DNA from: Polytrichum commune
Taxonomy: Eukaryota; Streptophyta; Polytrichopsida; Polytrichales; Polytrichaceae
Direction of reading: 5' to 3'
NCBI GenBank assembly: GCA_950295325.1
Contig: OX485808.1
Location: 32,883,180 to 32,947,179, forward strand
Length of the DNA stretch: 64,000 bases
Shown here: positions 7,438-46,689 of the stretch, piece by piece
How positions within the stretch are numbered: the first letter of the stretch is position 1
How the letters are laid out: each line of letters begins with the position of its first letter
Made by a program: the position numbers and the translations under genes
Notes under the pieces: generated by a model
Databases searched by the model: none
Seen by the model: the letters and a program-made list of their open reading frames with translations, nothing else
Told to the model about the DNA's origin: nothing

Positions 7438-9654
7438 TCAAAGCATAGAGTGGTACACAAGAATTATATAATATGCAAAGGGTGATGTACTTGGAAGTGG
7501 ATTTGAAGATGAAGACTTTGAGAGCTTACATGGAATAAAGTCAGATGGTAATAATCGCCTTTTTATTTTCAAATTGGTTCGATTTGTTACTCTTGACAAC
7601 ATGACATATGTTAGCCCTGGTGCAAATACATTGCGAATGTCCACAACCACATTTGTGGAGATGGTAGCACCTTGCGACTTGTGTCATGCCATTGCATATG
7701 CAAGCATAATGGGAAATCCACTTTTATAGAATTTTTTTCCAAATGTGTACACATGTTCGAAGGTGTTTCATTTGACAATCATTTGTTTTCCGGTGTTGGT
7801 GATTTGAACAATAATGTTTGTTACGTTTTGGTTTGTGTCAAGATTTATACTTGTCACAATTGCGGTGGTTCCATTTACAGCTCCCTTTGAAATGCTCATA
7901 TTTTCGGTGAACATTACAAGTGCATCTATAGCTACAATATGTAATAATTGAATAAAATGAGCATCATCTAGCTATTACTGCATATTATCATCCGGAAAAA
8001 CATTTGTGTCTAATTTCACAGATATCGTTTGTAAAATATTGAATTTTTTCTTGAAAACAATTTCATTGTACTTCATCACTTCCTCGCAATGAGAGCACAA
8101 TATGGTTGTGTCTTTATGAATGTGATCTTGCAAATGTTCCTTAGTTATAAAGCATTCTGCTAAGGCTACTTCTATCTCAAGTTCCGTAGGCACCCGTTCT
8201 CTTATAATGTTGAGAAACTGTAAATATGTAGGGTCTATCGCATGTCGTACCAACTTTTGCTATGTATGATATTTTGCAATAGCCCAACATGGAGCAGATA
8301 TGATGTGCCAACCTCTACACAAAATATCGGGGAATTTGGGTGAATGTATACATGTGGCAGGTCATTGTGCTAGGTCTCCAACTACAAGAACAAGTTTATT
8401 GCAAAGTGCATTCAATGATCTACTTCTGGCGGCTTGTTTGAGTCGGTGTTCGACGGTGCATAGCATGTAGTTTGTCATCATAGACATTTCATCTATGATA
8501 ATGACATCTGTCATTTGCAATCTCTCAAGTACAATTGATGGTTCTTGCAACAGAGACAAATACCCCCGAGGTGGAATACGAAATAGTATATGAGCGGTTG
8601 ACGCAGTGGGAGATAGTCGCAAAACTGCAGCTCCCGTTGTAGCGCACAACAATACATTCTTTTGTAATAGTTGAAAGTGTTGAGCCAAGTATTTTACAAA
8701 GAATGTTTTGCCGCTTCCGAGTGTAACAGTTAAAACGTGCAATCCTACAAGATTTTGAAGGATGTTATCAAGTACATATTGTTGCTCATTTGTAAGAGTC
8801 ATGTCAGAAATATGAATATCAAAAACATGATGTTTCTGTGGTTTTCCTTGGCGCAATGCATGCATAAATATTTCCATTGATGAATTTTCACGATCTGGAA
8901 TGAACAATGGATCGAGAAATGGATAGTCTTGTAGCAATTGGTCAAGAAGTTGAGCTTGTTTTTCTGTCTCAATAAGATTCATTTGTGTGTATTCCGATAG
9001 ATATTTTTGCACTGCTTGCACATCAGGAAGTAGGCCCCAATTGTAACACTTGAAAATGTAGTTATTGTTCGTGTTTTGGTATGATATGAGCTCTATTTCA
9101 TCTCTAAAGCAAAAATTGCATAGAAGAATATTGAAAAAAAATCCTTCTGTATTAAGCGTAGGATAAAAATCAGTGAATCTAGTGAGTTTCGATGTCTCAT
9201 ACAAATAAAACCCAAAGATGTCAATCTTGCAGCATTTTCCATTAGGCCTTTGTATTCTCTCCGTTTCAAATCTTTTGAAATACGAAACAAAAGTCATGTT
9301 CTCAAAATCAAGTGGTATATTACAGTATGCATCAATAGGACGGAATCCTAGTACTCTTGATTTTATAACAATTTTTGTTCATAGCAAAGGCGGTTTTGAA
9401 TCAATGTATCTAACTATTTTGTTTTTCTACACTATCAGGATGTGAAGGCAAGCCAACGCAGCTTCCGCAAGCGAAATTGGTTTGGCCATAATAAGTGAAG
9501 ATATCAATTGTAACTGAGCGTTTGACGCTCCTTGAATGCCCAATCGTTCAACATTGGTTTTATCTAATTGTATTGGACCGTGTGGCTCACATTTCATTGC
9601 ATATTTGAGTAAGTAATATGACCAGTACGCAGTGTTGATCCTTTGTATATTCAT
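7438..9654 (-). pseudogene. Helitron PIF1-like helicase, broken
   Basis: The linker piece (9654-9427) contains YLLKYAMKCEP and ISSLIMAKPISLAEAALACL, which are typical of the segment before the helicase in Helitrons. The main piece (9297-8362) has a Walker A-like TLGSGKT (canonical G-x-GTGKS/T), the sequence TTGAAVLRL, Walker B DVIIIDEMSMM and motif III VVGDLAQ. The next pieces (8253-7975 and 7650-7438) continue the helicase; the last carries motif VI as GLTYVMLSRVTNRTNLKI. Frameshifts and stops separate the pieces. The family unwinds DNA during rolling-circle transposition. Confidence 0.82.
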
Positions 9655-31406: not shown

Positions 31407-34400
31407 ATGATATGAATCAAATGATTTTGCCAAACCCAATAATGAGCATTAGGATAAAACTTGTCCATTCCAACTGTCCATTGCAACTTGCAACTCATGA
31501 TGAGAAAATGCATAAATAAAGCATTTTGGTTGTCAAGTGAAGGTTTTGGGTTAACAGTTCTCTCATATTTGCAACCAAAAACATTGAATTGATAACCATA
31601 ATGATTTGTTCATGTATGTTCTCACCATGAGTTGCAGTGGACAAGTTGTAATAGATGGTTGGAATGGACAAGTTTTCTCCTAATGGAAGATGGTCTTCAA
31701 AAAAGTTAAAATCCAACGTAACAAATCTTATATTATGCCATCCCACTTTGATGGAAATTAAGTTTTCTTTAATCTTATGAAGTTGACGCAACCCCAAGAC
31801 ATATCTAAATATTCTTAGTATGATAATTGTGTCATTCTAGAAATGCAAATGGTGGCCTTGCCAAAGATCACTTGAAAAAATTAGTTAAACTCCACAAACA
31901 ATTTTGATTATCAAATCAACTTGGATTATCTCATTTGACTAGCAATTGTAAATTGCAAAATTATCACTTCAAGTTTCATAATAAAAGTTGAGATTCGATG
32001 ATTCTAAAAAAATATCGAGTGAAGATTCTTTTTCTCCTCGAGTGATCACACATGCCTCCCTAGTTGTGTTCATTATTAAGCACCTAGAATTGGTGGTTGA
32101 AATTTGAGCACATAATCAATGCTCATTATAGAAACATATTTTTTTGGTGCTTGTTCTTGATTATAATTGTTGCCAAGAAGAAGAAGAACTCCGGTCTCCG
32201 GAGGAGGCCGGAGTGAATAGACTGTTTGTTCCTAGAACATCTTTGGCCACACCCTAGGGCAATGGCTTTAGATGTAAAACTACTTCACCCTTTGCAGGGA
32301 GTAGACACTATATTAGTAGCTAATAGTTAGTTAACCGATAACCAGTAGCATGTGACTGTTGTAAATGGGGTTTGTCCAATATAGTGGCATTGTAATATAG
32401 TGGCATTGTTTTATAGGGTAAAGTATACCGGGTTATAAGTTTGTTTATTTAGTCATACTAGGTCTTGAAGGTCTGTGACATCTTATTGGTTCTCTAGTCT
32501 TCCTTAATGAACTAGTATTGAGTGTGGGAAAATGTTTTGTATGTGTTTTGTGGATTTGGTGGTGGAGACTTTAGTTTCTTGTATGGTGATAATTGATGGG
32601 GGTGTTTGGGATTATGTCACTAGGTTTTATAGACATGGCATCGCGGTATTGAGCGAGGACGCATTTCATGTCATGATGTGTGATTTTTGGCTTGTTATGG
32701 ATGTTGGCTGTTGTAGTGGTGTTTGTGTATTGAATATTGGGGGAGTAGGGTGTTTATATCTTGTTATAAGCTCGTTGCATTTTAGTGCTTCTATGAGGAG
32801 TTGTTTTGGTAGGTATGAAAATGTTTATTGCATGTTTTGGATACTGGTTGGTTATGGGTTGAGATGTATGTGGTCGTATAATTATTTGTGGATTGTGTTT
32901 GAGGGGGAGATTTTATCGTTATATGTATTACGAAATTGTATGTATGGGTGCGGGTTTTCTATGTGGCATTCTGGTGGGTTGGTTAGTCTTGTCATTTTGT
33001 CCAATAATTGTAGGGTCCAATCATGTATTGGTTGTTGTTGAAAATGTATATTGCATGCTTCAATGGAAGGGTTGATTGTTATGACCAATGTGTAAATGAT
33101 TATTGAAGGAGGGTGATTATTATGTTGTTGTATGTAGTTGTGTAGGTGTGGGAATGAGAGTGTTGTTTGTATGTGTATGTAGTATATATTTTGAAAGAGT
33201 GGTTTGAACGTTTTGGCCAAGTGTTAATATTCGGATTGAAATTTTATCATGCTAGACAAGAAGTATGTTATTTATTGTCTTTTGTGTGGGGAGGGATGTT
33301 TTGGTAATAGGTTTGGCATTGGGCCGGGGCTAGTTTCAATGTCTCCACATCTTAGTAAAAAGATATTGTTAGAAATGAGAGAAAATATAATATTAAGTTG
33401 TAATTTTCTAATGTGTATTTATGTGTGGTTTTTTGTTCTCATTACATTGAATGAGAAATGATTTGTATTTGTTGAAGTGTGCCATTTTGATTTGAGTATA
33501 TGTATATTGTGTTGGTTGTTTAGTACACTCGTCTTATGGTATATCGGTTATAGGTATGGATCTTTTTTATGCCATTGGAGGTAAGTATGATGATAAGGAC
33601 CTCTACTATAGTAGTGGTATTTAAAAATACCCATTTATTTAGATTTTGTTTTTATTCGGGTTTTGTGTTCCTTGTTGATGATAGTGTCGAGGTGTTGTTC
33701 TTGATTAGTTTATCGCCATTAAGTCTTCTTTATCGCTAGATGAGTCTTCTTTGTCGAGCATGTCCGTAGATTTGAAGGCTGTCATGATTTTGTTGAGGGT
33801 TTGTCTTAGGGTGGCCATTTCTTTCTTCAAAGCCCTGGCCGCTTTGTCTGTTGTATATGTGACAAAATTTATGGCTTGGCTTGTGAGACGCGTTTCCATT
33901 GTTTACATTTCATTACGAACTATTGTGGTGCATTTGGCAACAACTTCTTCTATTATTTTGTTTACTATATTTTACTATATTTTATTTCCAATCAAGGGAT
34001 GTTTACATCATGGACCATGAAGTCGTCCCTTGCTCCTCTAAAACATGTGATTGGTTGTTGAACTCGTCTTGGGACCACTATGGTTTACGTAAAAAATAAA
34101 AATATAAGAGTGATCATGAAAATTGAGGTCCCTAAAAGGCCTATTTTCACGCCTACATTATCCTGTCATGATCTAATGAATTTTGTGATGAGAGAGGCAT
34201 AAGAGGTTCTCTTGCTGCAAATGTCACATGACCATGGCAGTGAAATTTTGTTTATATATATATATACATCTATATATTTGAGTGCAAACGTTATTGTAGT
34301 TGACATGAGATAAGGGGAAAAGAAAGGGGAGAAGATCAAACATGAAAAAAAATCCAAAACTACCCTTTTTAGATATGTATTTAAAAAAATCAGCACATCT

Positions 34401-35575: not shown

Positions 35576-36125
35576 TGCGAAAGTGATGTCGTGTAAACTA
35601 AGATCGTTAAACACAACAGATCGAGTGTTGGCGTCAACATCAATTAGCAAAATAAAATAGCAAACTAAAATGCTAAACAACCACCTCTTCAAGATGAGGG
35701 TTTCTCTCTCCAAGCTTAAGAAACTAAAATATCTCCTTACAAAGCTTAAGAAACTCTAAAATTCACACACAAGAGTCAAGCTATCTCTCACTCCACGAAG
35801 GGAGAATCCAAGAGTGCAAGTGGTGGAGAAAGAATGCAAAGGCTTTACTCATAATCTACTACACCATAGCCATGAGGAAGCAACAACAAGCTCTCTCTCT
35901 CTCAAAACACACTCACAAGACTTGACTTGACAACAATGGCAAGTCAAGAGGCCTTCCTCTCCATACAACCCCAATCCTATGTGGAGTTCATCCATGGAGT
36001 GGATGAACAACTAACTAGGACTCCCAATGGAGTCCGTTACTCATCCCAACACACATGGACTCCTAATGGAGTCCATTTACTCCTAAATCGACGTGACTTA
36101 GCCCCCGATGTCACCTCATGTGACA
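35576..36125 (-). repeat. 3' terminal repeat, with 119-bp extension
   Basis: 35695-36125 is the 431-bp copy of the right-hand repeat. The extra 35576-35694 lies between it and the proposed target duplication GTGAG; it starts TGCGAAAGTGA on the plus strand and includes the 107-bp segment at 35587-35693. That extension is absent from the 5' repeat, so the two ends are not symmetric. Confidence 0.7.
35587..35693. repeat. 107-bp segment S, copy 1
   Basis: Starts TGTCGTGTAAACTAAGATCG and ends CACCTCTTCAAG. By eye it is identical to 36128-36234. The two copies bracket the 431-bp repeat. Confidence 0.9.
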
Positions 36126-36127
36126 GC

Positions 36128-36234
36128 TGTCGTGTAAACTAAGATCGTTAAACACAACAGATCGAGTGTTGGCGTCAACATCAATTAGCAAAATAAAATA
36201 GCAAACTAAAATGCTAAACAACCACCTCTTCAAG
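36128..36234. repeat. 107-bp segment S, copy 2
   Basis: Identical to 35587-35693 and located between the 431-bp repeat and the end of pol. Just inside it, at 36235-36242, the minus strand has a G-rich GTGGGGGCA that could be a polypurine tract. Confidence 0.9.
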
Positions 36235-36559
36235 TGCCCCCACTAGCAGATAAGGAGCCCCTCCAATCGGCTAGGAACAAACACACTCATCGGTAGAGTT
36301 GTTGAACATGATGAAGTTGTTGCTACATCTATACATATTCAATTGGGTAGTGGTAATCTAGGGAATTAAAATCATGATTGAGAAAGTAATCCAAGAACTA
36401 TTGGCTGGGTGCAATTTGAGCCCCATCCTTAATCGCCTTCAACAATTTATGTTGAATTCTTGGATAACTCTTTCAATGTGATTTTCAATCCCATAAAATT
36501 TCCAACCAACTAAATAACAACTTCACCACTAAAACATGTGGTAAACATCCACAAAATCC

Positions 36560-39500
36560 TCAATCATGACCATTAACGGCCACGGAATGAGAGGCTTTCC
36601 GACAACGAGGACAAACCCAATTGCCAGAAGGAAGAGTCAAAAGGGAAGGTGTCAAACATGCCATGTGCCATCCACGTTGACATTGGTCGCACAATAACAT
36701 TGTTGCAGCTCCTTTCTTCTCTCCACAAACATAACAAGGCAAACCCTGTGGTACGACCGCCAACTCGGGATGCACAGAGCCGTCGATGGGAAGGTGACAT
36801 GGAGCACAATTCTTTGAATGCTCACGACATTCCCGTCCATCCTTGCCTTCAAGCAATAATATACCACTTGGCAAGACATCTTTTACCCGCAAAATCGTGC
36901 GCCCAGCCTTGACATCCAATGTCGTAGGCGCCTCCCGTTGCAAGTAAACATAATCCCCCTTGGAAAATCTACGAACCTGAGGTCGATAAGCTCTACTGCG
37001 GATCCGGGCATATCGTAATGTATCACGATGTTGAGCAATATTTAAGTTCTCCATAGCCATAGGCATGGCCTTTTGGAAGAACGCTGCTCGGTCATGAAGA
37101 CATTGAGCCCAAACATCTGGATCATCCAAGTTTACCACAGGAGCCAATTTCTCTCGCACCGAGCTAGGTAAAATTGGTTCCCGTCCATACAAGAGTTGGT
37201 AAGGACTATAGGATGCCAAAGATGCTTGCCTGCTGAAACGATAACCCATTGCTATCCATGGTAACATCAAGTCCCAATCGCGATGGTTGCCATGAAGCAA
37301 TCCATACTTCCGCAAACCGCGCTTAACCGTCTGAACAACTCGTTCAGCTAAGCCATCTGCCTCAGGGTGATCTCTGGAAGTTGTCCGATGATCAATCAAA
37401 GCCTTGGTACACAAAGCCTCGAAAGATCCAAGGAATTCTCTCCCTTGATCCGTCAACACCTCTGCAGGTGCTCCAAACCGTGCCAAAACTCGATCAAGAA
37501 ATGCCATAGCCGCCAATTCAGAGGAATTTTGGGGAAGAGCCACGAGTTCAATCCACTTACTAAAATGCTCCACCATCACAAGCACATATTTGGAGCCACG
37601 TGGAGTGATAGTAAGCGGTCCGGCAAAATCCAAAGACCAACGATATCCCAAGCCCATAATAGGTAAAGGTTGAAGTTGAGGTGATAAAGTATTAAAACTT
37701 GACCTAACCCGGTCACATACTTCACACCGAGAAACATAAGTGGCAACCTGTTGATACATACCAGTCCACCAATATTGGTTGCGCAACATAGAGTGCGTCC
37801 TTCGCACTCCAAAATGTCCAAGCTCCTCGTGCACTTGCCGCACCAAAGAAGCTCTTTGATCTGGCCTTGGAACGATGCGCCTCGTTCCGTTCGGCCACAC
37901 ACGAAATAACAAGTTGTTTGCCCAACGAAACCTTATTATCCGGTGACTAACTCTATCTCGCTCCATAGAAGATAGTCCAAGAGGAAATATCCCTTGTTGA
38001 AGTTTGTGCAAGACCGCCTGGTCTTCCCACACATCACTAACGACGAGAGATTTATCAACCTCCTCATCTTGCTCTTCCACAAGGATTTCAGCAGCCAATC
38101 CCGACATCATTGTGAGATACGTGGCAGCATGCCAACTCGGCACTGCCTCACGATCACAATCTCTATGCCACCTGGCTCCAGTTAAATCCTCATCTGAAGG
38201 ACTTGGATTGCGAGACAATCCGTCTGCATCCAAGTTGGCAATTCCTGCTCGGTGAACAACTTCAAAATCATATTCCTGAAGTAACAATGCCCACCTAGCA
38301 AGTTTTCCAGTGAGCTTATCTGATTCCATAAGCCATTTTAAAGGCTGATGATCAGTCACCAAAGTAAACTTCTGTCCATACAAATAAGGTCGAAAATGTG
38401 CAATGGCCCAAACGGCCGCCAAGGCCTCGCCTTCATAAGAAGAATAATTAGATTCAGCACTATTATTACTTCTAGATGCATAAGCCACCACATATTCCTT
38501 TCCCTCTTCATCTTTCTGTGTCAATACCGCTCCCAATCCCACTGCACTCCAATCCGTGTGCAATTGAAAAGCTCTAGACACATCCGGGCGTCGAAGCACT
38601 GGCGCTGAACCGAGCCTCTGCTTCAATGTATCAAATGCCTGTTGTTGTTCCTGATTCCAAATCCATGGTTGGTCTTTCCCCGTGAGAATGGTAAGAGGTT
38701 TGGCAATCAAACTAAAGTTTTTGACAAACCTCCTATAATAATTTGCCAATCCTAGAAATGCACGAAGCCGTGGTACATCACTAGGTGCGGGAATTTTGTG
38801 CAAAGCATCCACCTTCGCCTGTTGCACACCAAGACCGCCAGGAACAATCATGTGGCCTAAATAGGGCAATTGATCATGGAAAAACTTACATTTTCCATGA
38901 TGTAAACGGAGTCCCCACCGTTGAAGTCGTTCAAATACCGCTTGCAAATGTCTCACATGATCCTGTGGACTGTTACTAAAGATGATAACATCATCAATGT
39001 AACATCTAGCAAACGGCAAACTAGCCAATAATTGGTCCATCACCCGCTGAAATTCAGCTGGTGCATTCTTGAGACCAAATGGCAGAAATTTCCAATGATA
39101 AAGTTGATCCTTGCCATCTTTATCAATTCCCCAAAATGCGGTCTTCACCCGATCACCCAACAACAAAGGTAATTGGTGATAACCAGACCTCAAATCCAGA
39201 GTGCTGAAGATTCTAGAAAATCCTAGTGCATCAAACAACTCCTCCGGCATCGGCATTGGATATCGATCCGACTTGGTCTTGCGGTTGACTGGACGATAAT
39301 CACCACACATCCGTTTTTCCGTCCAGTTGCCAAAAATATCCTTCTTTGACGGCATAACCGTGGCACAAGCATACTCTCCATTGGAGAGTTCAATCAATTC
39401 CGCTGCCAATAACTCTTGACATCGAGTTTGAACACCCAACCTTTCAGAGGTACTAAGTCTGTACGGCCGTCTGAAAATAGGGTGGTCGTCCTCGAGTTGA

Positions 39501-39703
39501 ATACGAACAGGTTTACCTTTATATCCTTCAAGATCATGAAGACTAAAGGCAAAACAATTACGGTAAGAGCGAATAAATGCCCGTACCTTTCGTGCTTCGG
39601 CACCAGTAAGCTTTGGCCCCACTTCAATTGGCCAATCGTCAAACTCCGTGGTTTCCTTCTTTATAGAAGGATTGCCAATTGGTGCCAGCACAGCCTGTGA
39701 TTG
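36560..39703 (-). CDS. pol: reverse transcriptase, RNase H, integrase, PHD finger
   Basis: 1047 codons after the UAG, ending TGA; there is no ATG at the start, consistent with expression by readthrough (numbering from 39691). RT has catalytic D166 (TLDLRSG) and YIDD (231-234). RNase H has D380, E422 and D447, and ends near DADGLSR. Integrase has the zinc-binding region (HEELGH at 621-626, CEVCDR at 656-661) and D688, D748, E783 with about 35-residue D-E spacing. A basic C-terminal segment (KGDYVYLQRE) follows. A PHD finger replaces the chromodomain seen in many plant Ty3 elements: CYVC, LLCDQCQRGWH, MAC, WVCPRC (986-1030). All catalytic residues are intact. Confidence 0.95.
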   Translation of the reverse strand, partial: QSQAVLAPIGNPSIKKETTEFDDWPIEVGPKLTGAEARKVRAFIRSYRNCFAFSLHDLEGYKGKPVRIQLEDDHPIFRRPYRLSTSERLGVQTRCQELLAAELIELSNGEYACATVMPSKKDIFGNWTEKRMCGDYRPVNRKTKSDRYPMPMPEELFDALGFSRIFSTLDLRSGYHQLPLLLGDRVKTAFWGIDKDGKDQLYHWKFLPFGLKNAPAEFQRVMDQLLASLPFARCYIDDVIIFSNSPQDHVRHLQAVFERLQRWGLRLHHGKCKFFHDQLPYLGHMIVPGGLGVQQAKVDALHKIPAPSDVPRLRAFLGLANYYRRFVKNFSLIAKPLTILTGKDQPWIWNQEQQQAFDTLKQRLGSAPVLRRPDVSRAFQLHTDWSAVGLGAVLTQKDEEGKEYVVAYASRSNNSAESNYSSYEGEALAAVWAIAHFRPYLYGQKFTLVTDHQPLKWLMESDKLTGKLARWALLLQEYDFEVVHRAGIANLDADGLSRNPSPSDEDLTGARWHRDCDREAVPSWHAATYLTMMSGLAAEILVEEQDEEVDKSLVVSDVWEDQAVLHKLQQGIFPLGLSSMERDRVSHRIIRFRWANNLLFRVWPNGTRRIVPRPDQRASLVRQVHEELGHFGVRRTHSMLRNQYWWTGMYQQVATYVSRCEVCDRVRSSFNTLSPQLQPLPIMGLGYRWSLDFAGPLTITPRGSKYVLVMVEHFSKWIELVALPQNSSELAAMAFLDRVLARFGAPAEVLTDQGREFLGSFEALCTKALIDHRTTSRDHPEADGLAERVVQTVKRGLRKYGLLHGNHRDWDLMLPWIAMGYRFSRQASLASYSPYQLLYGREPILPSSVREKLAPVVNLDDPDVWAQCLHDRAAFFQKAMPMAMENLNIAQHRDTLRYARIRSRAYRPQVRRFSKGDYVYLQREAPTTLDVKAGRTILRVKDVLPSGILLLEGKDGRECREHSKNCAPCHLPIDGSVHPELAVVPQGLPCYVCGEKKGAATMLLCDQCQRGWHMACLTPSLLTLPSGNWVCPRCRKASHSVAVNGHD
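36596..36742 (-). other. PHD finger at the integrase C terminus
   Basis: C4HC3 pattern: CYVC, then CDQC after 13 residues, H, C, then CPRC. The spacing LLCDQCQRGWHMAC matches canonical PHD fingers, which bind histone H3 tails with K4 either unmodified or methylated. Its position at the end of integrase suggests targeting of insertion, as chromodomains do in chromoviruses. Ligand preference cannot be read from the sequence. Confidence 0.9.
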
Positions 39704-39712
39704 CTAGTCCGT
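39692..39712 (-). promoter_or_regulatory. candidate UAG readthrough site before pol
   Basis: The minus strand reads ACG GAC TAG CAA TCA CAG with the same frame open on both sides. UAG-CAA-UCA fits the UAG-CAR-YYA leaky-stop context established for tobacco mosaic virus and some retroelements. Readthrough would make a gag-PR-MTase-pol fusion and limit pol relative to gag. No frameshift is needed. Confidence 0.7.
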
Positions 39713-42700
39713 GGAGAGGGCAACACCTTTGCCCCCATCATCTGCACTTGAATCCAAATGCGTATCCTCTCCACTACAATCAGTTTGTGTAACTAAATAG
39801 CTATCCACATGTGAAGTATCACCAAGAAATAGAAGTGGAAATATTTTATGGGCCTCCAACTTCCCAAACTCTTGGGCCAAAGCCGAAAAAATACGTTGGG
39901 CTCGAAGCTCTTCCGCAACATGAAGTTTCAAAGGAAATAATCCCTCGGTGTCATTGACCTCAATGTGATCCTTGGATTGCGGCTCCATTGCCCCCTGACC
40001 ATTGTTCTCTGCCCTCAGAGTAAGCAATTGGTCATTCATACGTTGTTGAGCAGCAAGACAAATTCCAATTATCCACACAATGCTATTAAGATCCATAGCT
40101 TGCCCCAATAGGAAACGTCTCTGACCTTCCTGAAGCCCGTGAGCAGCCGTGGTACCTGTAAGAAAACCCATGGCGCGTTCCCGCTCATCTGCCGTAGGCT
40201 CCTCATAAGTTTGGGATTTTGAATCCCAAACCATGCCAGGTCCACGAGATCGAAATGCAAAAGACTGTGGATATGTCACAAAAGTAGGTAGTGCACCTCT
40301 CGGAATTCCCACCTTGTTAATTAATGCAAATGGCAAGGTGTCATCCTTGGTAACTGCCAAGGAAACACGATGATCATTTAAAATGTCATCCACCTTGCGA
40401 TCCATAAGGCGGGGAATGCGGGCAATCGCCGCTGAAAGCACCCGAGGTGATACCAAGTTGGTCCAAAACCAACGAGGCCGATGAACAAAGGATCCCAAAG
40501 ATGCAGCATCCAGAAATGTTGGAGTACCCAAAATTTGGTTAATGTACTCACCATCCTTCACCACTTTGTACCGGGTATCACCCAATAATGGTACATTTTC
40601 GAAAATGTACCCTGGCGGAGTTGATTGGTGGGTAAACCACCATTGCGTCAATCGCATCAAATCCGCAAACAAACTAGACCTAGGATCATCCAATCCCTGG
40701 CCAGTTCCTGCCCGCGAATGGCCTTGACAAGGCCATCCTGCAATAATCAAATCCACGTGGCCCAACCTTCTCAAATCCTCATCACTAATCATAGTGACAT
40801 CTTGAGGAAGTTGACCACAACATCCATGAATGGCAGAGGCTGACAATTGTGCGGGGTATCTTAACAACAATTGTTGGATGTGGTGTCGGACGGCTCTGTT
40901 GGCTGCATACCCATTGTCCACATGAATATATCGCCAAACTGTAATTCCAGCTTCCAACACTGCCGCCAAACCTGTGCCAATGCCTCCAAAGATCTCCACA
41001 AGGACAATACCTTCAGGTGATGGTTGCCAACGAATGAGTTGAGCAAAAGAAAATGAGGATGAAGTTGGGGGTGCCTCTCCAAGCTCCAAATCCGCTACAA
41101 TGTGTCGACAATGGTCGGATAACTCCTTAGGAGTTCGCCATGGTGGAGGTGGATCCTTGAAATGTCGAGCAGGAATTTGAAAAGATGGTAAAAATTGTTG
41201 TTCTGCCGCATTACAAGTGTAGTCCATTGTTTCCTCCAATAAAACTGGAGCACAAGGCAAATCTGCAACTAAACCGCTGCAACCAAACATTGCCTCCGCA
41301 ACCATAGTCATAGCAGTGGCTGCAAATGTGACAGGAATAAATACCTTCCTGCCATCTCCAGTGGACCATCCCGGTCTAATCCATGCCTCTTCTGTCCAAT
41401 TATCCAAACCAAAGCCAAGTGGGTAAAAAGCTTGTTGACCAACAAGTATATCATAGTTGGTAGCATTAGTAACAACACACTTCATTGACAAATGAGTGTA
41501 AGTAGGCCCTGTCCCCACATGAAAAATCAAACGTAGAGGTGCCTTGGTGTAACCTGTTGCACGTTCAGTGCCCCCTACTGAAGTCACAATAGTGAATGGA
41601 CAAGGATCCAAGCTTGCTGGCGTCAATCCAAGACTGTCAGCAAGTCCTTTGCCAATCATAATCGGTTGAGCACCGGAATCCATCATAACTCTCAGTGGTG
41701 TAGCACGGATAGTGGGCATATCCGTACGTGAAACGACAAACAAAGATTTGTCGTTTATCAGCCGTACAACTCCTGGTTGCAAATTATGCCGTTCGCGAGC
41801 AGGCCTTGCAGAAATGTCTGCAAGATATGCCGCTCCGGACGCATAATTCGCAAACGACGTATCCACTGCTGAAATTGATGATGGAGGAATATCAGTTTGC
41901 TTACCAAAAGCAATGATCGCCGCATCCGCAAGACTCGCTCGCAAATTGGCTAAGTCCTCCACCTCCTCAGCCACAGGTACGTCAACCACAACTTGGGATA
42001 CTTGAAGGGATGGCAAATCCGCCTTACCTTCTAACATTCTCCCAGCTAAATGAAAAACTGCAGCAGGCTTGAAATCCGAAGCCATAAACTCCGAACCCGA
42101 GAAAATTGGCATATGGAGAATTTTATATGCCAATGCCTGCGTAACATCCTTCGAGATGGAATCCCCATCTCTCAAAGGTACAGGGTTTTTAGCCCCAACA
42201 ACAGTGGTGTCTACCAATTCAAATGAAAGAGGTAAACGTGCTTGACCAATTTGATCAGTTGGTCCGGCATGGCGAGGATGTAGAACCTTGTTGCTACCAC
42301 CACTCGTGGAAGCCACCGCATCTGCCAATGTTTGTGAGCGAGTAGAAGCCGCCGCCACCACCTCTCCAGCTGCTCCAAACATATACATGTCCGAACCCGA
42401 GGTGCCACCACCCACATGCGGCTCAGAAATTTGAGCAAAAGATGCAGAAGATTTGAGCTTTTGCTCAAGCTCTGCCACCTTAGCCTCAAGACTCTGCTCC
42501 CTTGGAGACTTTCCAGTGACATAACTGGCAGGCCGCATCTTAGGATGAAGTAGGAAACAATGATCCACATCGTGATTAGTGCCACCACAATGGCTACATT
42601 TCAATTGTCTCTTCTTAGAATTGTCCCCTGCCCTTACTGGTTCCATCTTTTGTTTTAATTTTCCCAAAGGCTGAGTTTTCTTCTTCTTAGGACAATTGGG

Positions 42701-43468
42701 ATCATTCTTCGAATGACCAGCTTCTCCACAACCCCAACAATGCAAAATCTTTTGCTCCTTGACGGGTTGAGTCTCAGCTAAACTGCTAGTAGCTGTGACA
42801 ATTCTTCTTGGTTTCGGACTCTCTGTCATCCAAGATACCATATCCGTGGCATCATGTTGGCAAAGAGCCCGATCACATTTCTCAACCACGGCAAACGCTT
42901 GTGCAAGCGTAGCTCGGCCCTCGTAGTCGAGGATAATCCGAGGTGATGCCAACTCAAGTAGCCGCTTGTCAATCTTAGACAAAAAGATTTTAACAAGCTG
43001 ACTCTCAGCAAAAACACCTCCCGACTCCACAACAAATCGCGCGAGTCGCGTATACATGGTCCGTGGAGTATCATCCTTCTCTCGGCGGAAATCCTGGATG
43101 CGCTGCATCTGGTCTCGCCGAAACCCACCATACTCCACTTCCAAATGTGCGACAAATTCAGTAAGGGGATTAAATGGAGGTGGTGGACCAACAGCCGTCA
43201 ATGCTGCCTGTGTAGCACGTGCCATCCGTGGAAGGGTAGCCGTGCTACTGCCAGCCACCAGTGGCCCAAATGCCAGTTCTTGGTCCTCAGACTCCTCCGG
43301 TGGATCCTCCTCCTTTAAGGTGGGTGGAGCTAAGGTGGCAATCGCCCCATCTTTAAGGGCTGAAATAAGCTCAACCCGGGCCTCCCAATACTGCTCCACC
43401 TCCCGAAGTTGTCGCTGATGACCCTCTGTCCAGCGTTCGTAAGTTTGGAGTGCCTCATACTCCAAATG
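39704..43468 (-). CDS. gag - protease - C5 cytosine methyltransferase polyprotein
   Basis: About 1254 codons in the same frame as the gag start (residues counted from 43465). Gag runs to about 320, with zinc knuckles CWGCGEAGHSKNDPNC (243-258, wider H-C spacing than usual) and canonical CSHCGGTNHDVDHC (290-303). A retropepsin-type protease lies at about 575-700, with active site MMDSGAQ. A C5-MTase lies at about 815-1140: motif I VEIFGGIGTG (823-832), motif IV AGWPCQGHS with catalytic Cys913, motif VI FENVP (955-959), motif VIII HRPRWFW (995-1001), motif X LLGQAM (1119-1124). The order is not permuted, unlike plant DRM. The frame ends at TAG 39706-39704. The enzyme would methylate cytosine C5; it is probably released by the adjacent protease. 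Confidence 0.92.
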   Translation of the reverse strand, partial: HLEYEALQTYERWTEGHQRQLREVEQYWEARVELISALKDGAIATLAPPTLKEEDPPEESEDQELAFGPLVAGSSTATLPRMARATQAALTAVGPPPPFNPLTEFVAHLEVEYGGFRRDQMQRIQDFRREKDDTPRTMYTRLARFVVESGGVFAESQLVKIFLSKIDKRLLELASPRIILDYEGRATLAQAFAVVEKCDRALCQHDATDMVSWMTESPKPRRIVTATSSLAETQPVKEQKILHCWGCGEAGHSKNDPNCPKKKKTQPLGKLKQKMEPVRAGDNSKKRQLKCSHCGGTNHDVDHCFLLHPKMRPASYVTGKSPREQSLEAKVAELEQKLKSSASFAQISEPHVGGGTSGSDMYMFGAAGEVVAAASTRSQTLADAVASTSGGSNKVLHPRHAGPTDQIGQARLPLSFELVDTTVVGAKNPVPLRDGDSISKDVTQALAYKILHMPIFSGSEFMASDFKPAAVFHLAGRMLEGKADLPSLQVSQVVVDVPVAEEVEDLANLRASLADAAIIAFGKQTDIPPSSISAVDTSFANYASGAAYLADISARPARERHNLQPGVVRLINDKSLFVVSRTDMPTIRATPLRVMMDSGAQPIMIGKGLADSLGLTPASLDPCPFTIVTSVGGTERATGYTKAPLRLIFHVGTGPTYTHLSMKCVVTNATNYDILVGQQAFYPLGFGLDNWTEEAWIRPGWSTGDGRKVFIPVTFAATAMTMVAEAMFGCSGLVADLPCAPVLLEETMDYTCNAAEQQFLPSFQIPARHFKDPPPPWRTPKELSDHCRHIVADLELGEAPPTSSSFSFAQLIRWQPSPEGIVLVEIFGGIGTGLAAVLEAGITVWRYIHVDNGYAANRAVRHHIQQLLLRYPAQLSASAIHGCCGQLPQDVTMISDEDLRRLGHVDLIIAGWPCQGHSRAGTGQGLDDPRSSLFADLMRLTQWWFTHQSTPPGYIFENVPLLGDTRYKVVKDGEYINQILGTPTFLDAASLGSFVHRPRWFWTNLVSPRVLSAAIARIPRLMDRKVDDILNDHRVSLAVTKDDTLPFALINKVGIPRGALPTFVTYPQSFAFRSRGPGMVWDSKSQTYEEPTADERERAMGFLTGTTAAHGLQEGQRRFLLGQAMDLNSIVWIIGICLAAQQRMNDQLLTLRAENNGQGAMEPQSKDHIEVNDTEGLFPLKLHVAEELRAQRIFSALAQEFGKLEAHKIFPLLFLGDTSHVDSYLVTQTDCSGEDTHLDSSADDGGKGVALSTD
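40046..41023 (-). other. C5 cytosine DNA methyltransferase domain
   Basis: Catalytic domain only. Motif I binds S-adenosylmethionine, the PCQ of motif IV carries the nucleophilic cysteine, and ENV of motif VI is the usual glutamate-bearing motif; all are intact. The spacing from motif I to VIII (about 170 residues) and the short region before motif X are similar to DNMT3-like enzymes. I cannot assign the subfamily firmly without an alignment. No obvious separate DNA- or histone-binding domain is attached on the same side. Confidence 0.9.
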
Positions 43469-43801
43469 CTAAGGCAGAAGTTCAAAGGCATACCAATCAT
43501 TGAAATTGGAAGACCTTTGGCGTTTCTCCTTAATCCAGGTACGAAACCGGAGTTTCCAATCGGGCAAGGAAATGCCCCCAGCTCGACCTGAAAACCGATC
43601 ACGCACTGAATTGTGGCGATCGTCCTCCATTTCGTCGAACGTGCCGACACTCCAAATCCGAAGCCTACTAGTAGTGTCCAACGCTGAAATAGGCTCAAAA
43701 GCCTCGTTGGTATCTACCTCTGGCTCAAGATTTGTGGTATGCACGTCCTCCAAGTAATCTGGTGAGGGAGATCGATAATATCGGCTCCTAGTTTGCACCA
43801 T
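43469..43801 (-). CDS. gag N-terminal part, ends at UAG
   Basis: 110 codons starting MVQTRSRYYRSPSPDYLEDV and ending DWYAFELLP before a TAG at 43471-43469. The start is the first ATG after the leader. The downstream frame continues immediately in the same phase (CAT TTG GAG), with gag-like helical sequence on both sides, so the TAG divides one gag domain. The Arg-Thr-Trp (FRTWIKEKR) region fits the N-terminal gag domain of Ty3-type elements. The TAG is either a nonsense mutation (CAG to TAG would be one C-to-T change) or a leaky stop. Confidence 0.75.
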   Translation of the reverse strand: MVQTRSRYYRSPSPDYLEDVHTTNLEPEVDTNEAFEPISALDTTSRLRIWSVGTFDEMEDDRHNSVRDRFSGRAGGISLPDWKLRFRTWIKEKRQRSSNFNDWYAFELLP

Positions 43802-45254
43802 AAAATAATCACTTGAGTACTTGCAACTATCTACAAGGTAATGGCAACCTGCACCTGTTGCGGGCTATCTAAATGGCAATCCCTTGCCAAATGCCAAGTG
43901 TTTATGCCCCCAAAATTCCAAAATTGTGCAAAGGTTTGAGATTGGTAATTAAAATGAAAAATCAGCGTTGAAAAGGCTCATTTCCAAGGTGATTATGGAC
44001 TCCGATCAACAAACTAAGTGCACCAATGGACTCCTAGGAAGATTTCACACAAATTAGGCTCAAATTTCACTCCGTTCGGAGTTAATTTGCTCCCAAAAAC
44101 AAAAATCAGCGTTGAAATTAATAATTTCAGCAATGATTTTGAATTCCAACCAACAATCCAATTACATTATTGGATTCCTTGGCAAATTTCACACAAGATA
44201 GGCTCAAATTTCACTCCGTTCGGAGCTAGTATGCCCCCAAATTTGAACCTCAAAGTTTGTGAGAATTGGATGCCAAGTTTGGAAGGTAAAAGTAAAAATG
44301 TGAAAATAAAATAAAATAAAATAAAATAATTGTTTTAATGAAACAAAACAAAAACAAAAACAAAAACAAAAACAAAAACCAAAAACCAAAAATTAAAAAT
44401 AAAAACTAAAAATAAAATAAAATAAACTTAAACTTAAACTTAATTAACTTAATTAACTTAATTAACTTAAATGAATTAACTTAATTAATTTAGTTTAACT
44501 CAACATAACTTAATTAACTTAAACTAATGAACGTAATTAATTAAGTTAATCTAAGTTAATTAACTAACCTAATTAACTAACCTAATTAACTAACCTAATT
44601 AACTAATCTAATTAACTAATGAAGGTAACTAACTTAATTAATGAATTTCACATTAAAGTGAAAGGGGGTCTTACCTGGAAAAGGGGAGGGGGGGCCAGGC
44701 TGGCGCCGCCCGCCATCCGGCCAGGCTGTCGCCCGCCCGCCCCCGGCCCGCTGCCACCTCGCCGCGGGGCCCGGCTGCCGCCCGCCCGCCCCCGGCCCGT
44801 GATTAGCCGCCCCCGCCCCGGGATTTTGCCGCCCCGGGGTGCAGAATTGGAGCTCCAGGAGCTCCAGGAGCTCCAAGAGTGTCCGTGGAGCTCCGGAGCT
44901 TCAAAAAAAAAAAAATTAAAAAAAATTCGGATTTTAAGTTTGGTTGGTGTTTGTTTGTAAATTTAAAAAAAAAAATTAAACTTTGCTTTTACAAATTGCA
45001 AGCAAGAATGATGTGACTTGAGAATCTTGAGACCAAATAGAATCTCAAGATTCAACCATCAACACTTGAAGAAAACACAAAGAGACAACAAAAGAAAAAT
45101 GGGAAGATTTCTCTCAAAATCTTCTTGAGGGTTGCAAGAAATGACAAACTAAGCTTTCAAACACTTGTATCACTCATTTGCTCTCAATACTGGACCATTC
45201 TAGCTCAGAAATACAACCAAAAATGAAAAATTTGAATACAATTGTTGTCAAGTA
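43802..45254 (-). other. long non-coding leader of the retrotransposon
   Basis: About 1.45 kb between the 5' repeat and gag. It contains a diverged direct duplication (44041-44100 and 44183-44240, sharing CTCAAATTTCACTCCGTTCG), (AAAAT)n and (CAAAAA)n tracts at 44298-44400, TTAATTAAC-type repeats at 44415-44645, and a very GC-rich block at 44680-44840 with a repeated CGCCCGCCCGCCCCCGGCCCG unit. No coding capacity is supported; GC-rich frames there are compositional. Its length and structure suggest a strongly folded 5' untranslated region. Confidence 0.7.
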
Positions 45255-45685
45255 TGAGGGTTTCTCTCTCCAAGCTTAAGAAACTAAAATATCTCCTTAC
45301 AAAGCTTAAGAAACTCTAAAATTCACACACAAGAGTCAAGCTATCTCTCACTCCACGAAGGGAGAATCCAAGAGTGCAAGTGGTGGAGAAAGAATGCAAA
45401 GGCTTTACTCATAATCTACTACACCATAGCCATGAGGAAGCAACAACAAGCTCTCTCTCTCTCAAAACACACTCACAAGACTTGACTTGACAATAATGGC
45501 AAGTCAAGAGGCCTTCCTCTCCATACAACCCCAATCCTATGTGGAGTTCATCCATGGAGTGGATGAACAACTAACTAGGACTCCCAATGGAGTCCGTTAC
45601 TCATCCCAACACACATGGACTCCTAATGGAGTCCATTTACTCCTAAATCGACGTGACTTAGCCCCCGATGTCACCTCACGTGACA
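45255..45685 (-). repeat. 5' terminal repeat of the retrotransposon
   Basis: 431 bp, beginning TGTCACGTGAGG and ending CCCTCA on the minus strand. It differs from 35695-36125 at two positions. It contains short self-complementary stretches (ATGGACTCC and GGAGTCCAT, 45611-45640) and a (CT)n tract. The internal sequence right after it (TACTTGACAACAATTG) is not a recognisable initiator-methionine tRNA primer-binding site. Confidence 0.85.
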
Positions 45686-46689
45686 GTGAGTTTAATTCAA
45701 CAGGTTCAAAAACCGCATTATCATTGGCAATATGTGAGCCCAAGCTCATCATTTCTTCAAACTGAGAGAGCAGCAACTCTGTCGCAGAAAAAGATAGCTC
45801 TCTTCTGGAGCTCTCTGGTTTTTTTTAAAATCTACCTGCCGCTTTCCCGAAGGCACCTTCCCAGCTCCTTCACAGCCTCCCCCTGTTTCCCGGCAGTGTG
45901 GTGACGGTGAGGGGCAGCGGCTGACGTGCCACCCCCCACCGTAGGCCTAAGCCTAGCCCGACAGGCTGCCTTGCCTCCCCCCCATGTGGTAGGGGCCTTA
46001 GTCCACGTTCGGTTTACACCTAGTGAGAGGCCCAAAGGCTTTAAAAATACATTTTTCAGAAATTGGACTATGAAAGTGTGACCATGGAAAAAGGCCATCT
46101 GACATGGGACACCTTCGTGAAGATTGACCACATAACGCCCAGATCGCTTCTACACCTAACTAGGGGACCACGTGACCGGCAGATGACCTAAGTTAAGCCC
46201 CAAGCTCTTCAAAGATGACCTGAAGAACAGGTAGAAATTAGGGCAGATCGACGGGCAATGACGGGAAGAGACCACTAAGAAGACACTGGTGGTCAACTCC
46301 TTTCGTAAATACCCTGTGATTTGAGACATTGCAGAGACAGGGTTTGTGGATTGCACTCATCCGGGTCAGAATTGCAGGCATCGTCGCCTTGAAAATTTCT
46401 GGTGAGCTTTGTAGATTTCGACACGCATGCCAGTGGACCCTATTACAGCTCTTGGGTTATTTTACACTAAGGAGCTCGATTGTCGGCGATGCTTCAGTTT
46501 CGTAGGAAGTAGAATTCTAATTTTGCGGTACTGATTTTTAGTCGATTGAAAGTGTGTAGGGTTTTGTTGATTCACTTTGTAATGTGGGAAGTTCGAGTAA
46601 GTTGTGAGGAAGCAAAACATTTGATCCTTGTTCACTTTTGTGGTTCTGTCATTACGTCCATTTTTTTCAGGTAATTATAGAAGATTGTC
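45686..46689. other. right flank of the retrotransposon
   Basis: Starts with the GTGAG target-duplication candidate. 45830-46000 is GC-rich and ends with the inverted partner of the 34426 end (complement reads TAAGGCCCCTACCACATGGG). 46001-46689 probably includes the distal promoter or 5' untranslated region of the CMSS1 gene; no other gene is seen. Confidence 0.4.

Follow-up and report, generated by a model that had tools for sequence, protein, structure and literature searches.

What could a retrotransposon do with a DNA methyltransferase of its own? The question is raised by a window of 64,000 nucleotides of the Polytrichum commune genome, in which a Ty3/gypsy-like retrotransposon occupies positions 35587–45685 of the minus strand and has, between the protease and the reverse transcriptase (RT), a methyltransferase (MT) domain of DNMT3 type that is complete. 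The initial annotation had described a retrotransposon that encodes its own C5 cytosine methyltransferase in this place; the location of the domain is confirmed in the window copy, and the domain set supports the description (Table 1). The order of domains (protease, RT, RNase H and integrase) is that of Ty3/gypsy elements with the MT inserted, so that the element appears gypsy-like by its domains and not a plain LTR element, a class assignment that rests on Pfam matches and on the RTs of its relatives. All eight zinc ligands of the PHD finger are there by eye, and the protease motif DSGA is kept in 17 of 20 copies examined. The CCHC region of gag had no match in the Pfam search of the window ORFs, and inspection by eye gave no clear match for a tRNA primer site.

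Table 1. Features of the element and its flanks in the window, listed by position.
Feature	Position	Strand	Remarks
Target-site duplication TCAC, 3' side	35583..35586	-	exact 4-bp duplication in 15/16 copies with readable flanks
Terminal repeat B2, 107 bp, ends ..CGACA	35587..35693	-	
Repeat A2, 432 bp, begins TGTCAC	35694..36125	-	
GC dinucleotide at B1-A2 junction, palindrome GACA-GC-TGTC	36126..36127	-	
Repeat B1, identical to B2	36128..36234	-	
ORF2 (RT-RNase H-integrase-PHD), open, 1047 codons	36560..39703	-	
PHD finger, C end of integrase ORF	36584..36751	-	PF00628 5.6e-10
Integrase, zinc-binding and rve core	37004..37903	-	PF17921 1.4e-17, PF00665 1.4e-13
RNase H	38264..38668	-	PF17917 8e-39
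Reverse transcriptase, YIDD	38804..39583	-	PF00078 6e-31
In-frame UAG ending ORF1, then CAATCA (CARYYA leaky-stop context)	39704..39706	-	
ORF1, larger open part (gag-CCHC-protease-MT), 1254 codons	39704..43468	-	
DNMT3-type cytosine methyltransferase domain	40046..41029	-	
Aspartic protease, MDSGAQP	41369..41758	-	PF13650 8.5e-4, under Pfam's cut-off
CCHC zinc-knuckle region of gag	42521..42745	-	by eye: CWGCGEAGHSKNDPNC, CSHCGGTNHDVDHC
Premature stop breaking ORF1 of the window copy	43469..43471	-	same frame open in other copies
N-terminal part of gag, starting at the frame's first ATG	43472..43801	-	
Repeat A1, 5' terminus, begins TGTCAC	45254..45685	-	
Target-site duplication TCAC, 5' side	45686..45689	-	

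Within the AT-rich 5' leader of the window copy we noticed a very GC-rich and CpG-dense patch (about 44680–44870); a 150-bp leader stretch of at least 75% GC occurs in 10 of the 20 copies examined, at varying locations, and is absent from some copies. Elsewhere in the window, an ORF on the minus strand (8362–9297) matches PIF1-like helicases (PF05970 3e-13) and is perhaps a Helitron remnant, and the plus strand shows strong base skew at 32001–34000 (GC skew 0.39, AT skew -0.27) around a 169-codon ORF that had no Pfam match at 0.01.

The best sequence and fold matches of the MT domain are DNA methyltransferases. In profile alignments with solved structures, DNMT3A ranked first (1e-21), followed by 4onj, labelled 'DNA methyltransferase' and which we take to be a DRM (2e-14), and by DRM2 (3e-11); DNMT2 (1e-9 to 2e-9) and HaeIII (1e-7) were more distant, and no chain named DNMT1 or CMT was found at 1e-6. 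The motifs stand in the order I-IV-VI-VIII-X, with no DRM-like rearrangement. Judged by solved structures only, DNMT3 appears to be closer kin of the domain than are DNMT1, DNMT2, DRM or the bacterial enzymes. With regard to a viral origin, the fold search gave 2.2e-17 for DNMT3A in the PDB versus 7.6e-16 or weaker for phage and giant-virus methyltransferases in a viral fold library, and 29 IMG/VR loci are 27–55% identical to the MT over parts of the domain only, compared with 40–96% for its protein relatives among the matches listed (best 120 of 135).

The MT is a real, conserved and family-wide component in this genome. The genome was searched with the MT as query, and 92 of the 605 first-look candidates were scored, each with at least 89% identity; by our own count the 463-residue query is free of stops in 42 of them. 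As to intact copies, the number of which the initial annotation had proposed to count, the whole ORF1 frame (1386 codons) is open in 15 of the 92. A PF00145 search of the genome had 352 candidates, 123 of which were scored, and its top 20 rows were fetched as 10-kb pieces, so that these copies were chosen by MT score. The MT, or a large part of it, is present in all 20, and 19 have it between protease and RT; in the remaining copy (L019) a gag-like match adjoins the MT and no protease match was found. Two subfamilies, A and B, are represented among the 20. Subfamily A is about 88–99% like the window copy, depending on the domain, and subfamily B is 60–72% like it in gag (54% in L019), 60–65% in the MT and 79–92% in RT, RNase H and integrase (74% in the integrase of L012). 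Both frames are open in L021 (subfamily A, 1386 and 1047 codons) and in L026 (subfamily B, 1366 and 1048 codons), and a single early stop in gag breaks ORF1 of the window copy.

Copies lacking the MT were looked for among the results of an RT search (146 scored of 1582 candidates), from which 12 matches with no listed MT partner were chosen by eye, a small and non-random sample, and about 2.6 kb upstream of each was read. The MT is full or nearly so in eight of the 12, with the protease in view in six of those eight. All or most of it is missing in four, none with a clean junction: L077 retains only the MT end, L079 and L082 only the tail behind the MT, and L080 nothing recognisable. A protease joined directly to RT was found in none of these 12 copies and in none of the 20 selected by MT.

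Of the 21 copies (window included), 15 yielded a full-length MT domain. Motifs IV (WPCQG, with PCQ) and VI (ENV) are kept in all 15; 13 have an intact motif I, 14 an intact motif VIII and 12 an intact motif X, and four of the domains contain one stop each. Within subfamilies, dN/dS (computed as a ratio of means) is 0.36 (A) and 0.26 (B) for the MT, near the values for RT (0.30 and 0.21) and gag (0.28 and 0.15); RNase H gave 0.36 and 0.14 and integrase 0.26 and 0.15, and higher values were obtained for the protease (0.45 and 0.47) and the PHD finger (0.70 and 0.55). Between the subfamilies, dN of the MT is 0.28 and dS is saturated (about 2.7). Neither of the two observations that the initial annotation had named as pointing to a one-off passenger, namely copies lacking the MT with a precise boundary (among 20 MT-selected and 12 RT-selected copies) or decay of all catalytic motifs, was made, and the MT looks like an old, conserved, standing part of the coding capacity of the element.

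The MT is the last domain of the Gag-protease-MT frame; a UAG codon comes next, and RT, RNase H, integrase and PHD finger continue in the same frame. UAG-CARYYA, which is the readthrough (leaky-stop) context of tobacco mosaic virus, stands directly after the MT in 21 of 21 copies (window included), the hexamer behind UAG being CAATCA in subfamily A and CAATTA or CAGTTA in subfamily B. The bases around this motif, before and behind, differ between the subfamilies; since the copies within a subfamily are close kin, the 21 cases represent few independent lines. The context of the UAG suggests that the MT is made at the level of Gag, with rare readthrough giving Pol: the MT would belong to the plentiful Gag-protease product, and RT-integrase would be made rarely.

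The ends of the element are built as A1-internal-B1-GC-A2-B2, that is, as split direct repeats with termini TGTC...GACA. Repeat A, of 432 bp in subfamily A and 333 bp in B, opens the element at its 5' end and recurs near the 3' end, and repeat B (106–107 bp) flanks the second A on both sides. Both ends are readable in 16 of the 21 copies (window included), 13 of which have the complete arrangement, and the other three (L009, L018 and L021) read A1-internal-B1, with no A2-B2. Target duplications are exact over 4 bp in all of the 16 except L025, in which three of the four bases agree. L009, L018 and L021 have exact 4-bp duplications though they end at B1, as insertions without any repeat pair; these short forms could have arisen by B1-B2 recombination or from a second cDNA form. 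Insertions with 0–3 mismatches between A1 and A2 occur. A reading as plain LTRs was rejected, because B lies on both sides of A2 and the duplications fit only A1..B2 (A1..B1 in the three short copies). The internal junction GACA-GC-TGTC looks as if the ends of the element had been joined. Termini of the TG..CA type (TGTCAC..CGACA) with a short target duplication (4 bp) are as in Ty3/gypsy elements. No tyrosine-recombinase family was found among the Pfam matches of the ORFs, and ORF2 holds an rve integrase; of the features that define DIRS/PAT elements, split repeats are present, and a tyrosine recombinase and the absence of target duplication are not.

Traces of methylation were sought in private changes, counted in the coding regions of 12 A copies and 8 B copies (L009–L018, L020–L028 and window; L019 omitted). 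In subfamily A, C-to-T changes per site and copy are 0.0152 in CG, 0.0173 in CHG and 0.0121 in CHH, with T-to-C at 0.0019; in subfamily B the values are 0.0242, 0.0244 and 0.0173, with T-to-C at 0.0044. Private C-to-T changes exceed T-to-C about 4–9 fold, alike in CG, CHG and CHH. Since this decay affects all three contexts, it points to general methylation by the host and not to the enzyme of the element: the copies seem to lose cytosines as would DNA that is methylated at CG, CHG and CHH sites, for which the host is the simplest agent. Repeat A has a composition of its own. In the window it contains no CHG, whereas 326 GC-matched windows taken from these 64 kb have 15.6 on average and never so few, and shuffling the bases of the repeat gives 12–14.5. 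The repeat A of subfamily B (L011 1540–1872), 73% similar over 191 bp, lacks both CAG and CTG and contains CCG twice. CAG and CTG together number zero in the repeat A of eight of nine copies counted and one in L016; leaders have 12–46, with none in a 228-bp piece of L011 or in one AT-rich stretch of the window leader. One reading is that repeat A is a promoter spared CHG methylation. Depletion of CG in the terminal repeat was considered and rejected as a special feature, as 101 of the 326 GC-matched windows are as poor in CG.

Relatives of the element extend beyond this moss. Gag-protease-MT proteins were found in Marchantia polymorpha, an MT fragment running into RT (by eye) in Riccia sorocarpa (P0107) and MT fragments in Sphagnum troendelagicum and Calypogeia fissa; the other relatives are mostly metagenome proteins. 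An integrase-PHD relative with the MT before the integrase occurs in Volvox reticuliferus (P0220), and one from Haematococcus lacustris (P0279) has no MT in the fragment. Two layouts can be told apart: the MT precedes RT in one and stands between RNase H and integrase in the other, which retains the PHD finger; the PHD finger is also present in the algal relatives. Of 119 new proteins from the integrase-PHD search (among the best 120 of 349), 71 have no MT in the same protein, as is expected of fragments and of ORF2-type proteins, and the contigs of P0167 and P0168 have the same length as those of the MT proteins P0130 and P0029. Relatives that lack the MT may nevertheless exist. No match named Klebsormidium was found among the matches listed (best 120 of 135, 45 of 45 and best 120 of 349), few of which carry species names. 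P0002 and P0249 belong to this family of plant retroelements but are catalogued with bacterial metagenome genomes (Candidatus Obscuribacterales and Spirochaetia), and probably come from misbinned contigs. In P0149 and P0220, about 300 residues or more extend past the PHD finger, and the tail of P0149 contains a TSPPF stretch, which, also by eye, presumably resembles another methyltransferase motif.

Trees were built from 29 proteins holding MT, RT and RNase H (RH), six with the MT before RT and 23 with the other layout. A single branch separates the layouts in quick trees of the MT (SH-aLRT 99) and of RT+RH (97), and careful trees gave the same split (100/98 with 14 RT+RH rows, 85/89 with 12 MT rows). 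MT and RT+RH distances are correlated (Mantel r 0.77, a value reached by 0 of 2000 permutations), weakly so within the six MT-before-RT proteins (0.37), and the long branches of P0164 and P0176 meet in the MT tree. No rooting is claimed, since the human DNMT3A outgroup sits on a very long branch. The trees favour one old association of MT and RT with a later change of place; two captures of MTs from related sources may account for them instead. The initial annotation had left it between the lineage known from Klebsormidium and an independent capture; since the MT and RT trees agree across the relatives, it is unlikely that the MT was captured independently and recently in this plant.

From the anatomy of the element we propose, with a probability of about 0.5 for the whole, that the best explanation of this locus is an MT produced at Gag level that methylates newly made cDNA prior to integration, which would proceed from joined ends. 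Most translation would stop after the MT, and rare readthrough of the UAG would yield Pol. The MT would enter the particle with Gag, be freed by the protease and methylate newly made double-stranded cDNA; this cDNA would pass through a joined-end (circular) form, which the integrase would cut at GACA-GC-TGTC. Related PHD fingers prefer unmethylated H3K4, and the PHD finger of the element could favour certain chromatin, perhaps that with unmethylated H3K4. New copies would arrive already methylated and would not be treated as foreign or damaged DNA, causing little harm, and the nearly CHG-free terminal repeat would keep the promoter usable. We infer that the element may be 'self-methylating', as the initial annotation called it. 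Counting against this explanation are the C-to-T decay in all contexts, the stops in four of 15 MT domains and the incomplete retention of motifs I, VIII and X, the four of 12 RT-selected copies with little or no MT, the many RT-integrase proteins that have no MT in the same protein and the three of 16 copies that end at B1, as well as the inactivity in yeast of KnitGypsy-Dnmt3, a result its authors call inconclusive (PMC5890265).

The MT may instead act in trans on chromosomal DNA, be it older or competing copies or host sites, so as to limit rivals or copy number, the element's own cDNA having no need of it. Such an action would be in line with the slowed retrotransposition discussed by de Mendoza and colleagues (PMC5890265) and with an ORF1 open in 15 of 92 scored copies, in a genome with strong C-to-T decay of copies in all contexts; yet this spectrum is as expected from the plant host's own methylation, and an MT fused to Gag and protease within a single ORF is better suited to being packaged than to working freely in the nucleus, and we consider trans action rather unlikely. 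Lower still we place self-restraint as the main role, in which the MT is kept since elements that flag themselves for silencing harm the host less: purifying selection on the MT like that on other domains and the insertions with few A1/A2 mismatches agree with it, but a lineage that lost its brake should outgrow the rest, and no protease-RT join appeared in the small RT-selected sample of 12.

Somewhat less probable again is a role away from DNA, with the MT binding or methylating the RNA of the element, or being itself a protein of the particle. The arginine with which DNMT3A recognises CpG, presumably R836, has no clear counterpart in the MT by the profile alignment, the region around it being longer. 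RNA methylation was raised by de Mendoza and colleagues for the LINE type (PMC5890265); against a role away from DNA, the domain matches DNA methyltransferases best, both by sequence and by fold, and the DNMT2 tRNA enzymes are far weaker matches. That the MT is a functionless passenger gene captured once is very improbable, given its conserved motifs and low dN/dS, its presence in both subfamilies and in relatives, and the congruence of MT and RT trees.

On a wider scale, we put forward more tentatively, as a possibility that we would sooner doubt than assert, that one ancient capture gave rise to integrase retrotransposons spread across green plants, in which DNMT3 and a PHD reader are standing partners and the cDNA has joined ends and is probably circular. 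The MT would have moved within the polyprotein (before RT in the bryophyte type, between RNase H and integrase in the partly green-algal type) and yet stayed with its own RT, and methyltransferases would recur in elements with split direct repeats (DIRS group, SymbioDIRS-Dnmt3 and the Gypsy type) because such cDNA needs methylation to survive or integrate. The element itself widens what was a curiosity of one alga and dinoflagellates to a broader plant lineage, with relatives in tractable hosts (Marchantia and Volvox). It raises the questions of whether a retrotransposon methylates its own cDNA, of whether the enzyme is made at Gag level by way of a leaky stop, and of whether a PHD-bearing integrase uses ends with split repeats, which are known elsewhere from elements with a tyrosine recombinase. 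Should transposition require the MT, DNA methylation would belong to the life cycle of the parasite and not to host defence alone.

Some DNMT3 are known to sit in streptophyte and dinoflagellate retrotransposons (PMC12344493, 2025). The likeness to the Klebsormidium case that the initial annotation had seen holds: KnitGypsy-Dnmt3 of K. nitens is described with Gypsy domains, a DNMT3-type domain that lies unrearranged within the coding sequence and is under purifying selection, and A-coding-B-A-B repeats said to be structured as in DIRS (PMC5890265). Its kinship with the moss element rests on layout, compared by published description, and the majority of Dnmt3 sequences in K. nitens reportedly fall into a divergent clade (PMC5890265). 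In the sections consulted, the account mentions no leaky stop, target duplications or moss, liverwort or chlorophyte relatives, and the word 'PHD' is absent from its main text (PMC5890265). The CG methylation that had been ascribed to Klebsormidium belongs elsewhere, as de novo CG methylation in yeast was reported for SymbioDIRS-Dnmt3 of Symbiodinium and KnitGypsy-Dnmt3 gave none (PMC5890265). SymbioDIRS-Dnmt3 resembles the moss element in its DNMT3 within the Pol polyprotein, its A-coding-B-A-B repeats and its two domain orders, but has a tyrosine recombinase where the moss element has an rve integrase (PMC5890265). PAT, Ngaro and VIPER share the split direct repeats (A1 / B1-A2-B2), and DIRS-group elements can bear a methyltransferase domain (PMC6681497, PMC4157794); unlike the moss element, with its rve integrase and 4-bp duplications, PAT, Ngaro and VIPER use a tyrosine recombinase that makes no target duplication (PMC4157794).

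In the open-access literature we found no such element for bryophytes or chlorophytes beyond PMC5890265, and no account of such a PHD finger or context of the UAG, of the duplicated target sites or of a spread of these elements in bryophytes and chlorophytes. Chromoviruses and other plant Ty3/gypsy clades have the same protease-RT-RNase H-integrase order and an extra chromatin-type domain behind the integrase, as described in REXdb, in the main text of which the words 'PHD' and 'methyltransferase' are absent (PMC6317226); the moss element differs in having a PHD finger in place of a chromodomain, an MT and no plain LTR pair. With respect to these precedents, new here are the UAG-CARYYA after the MT, the PHD finger behind the integrase, the split ends with 4-bp duplications and the CHG-poor terminal repeat.
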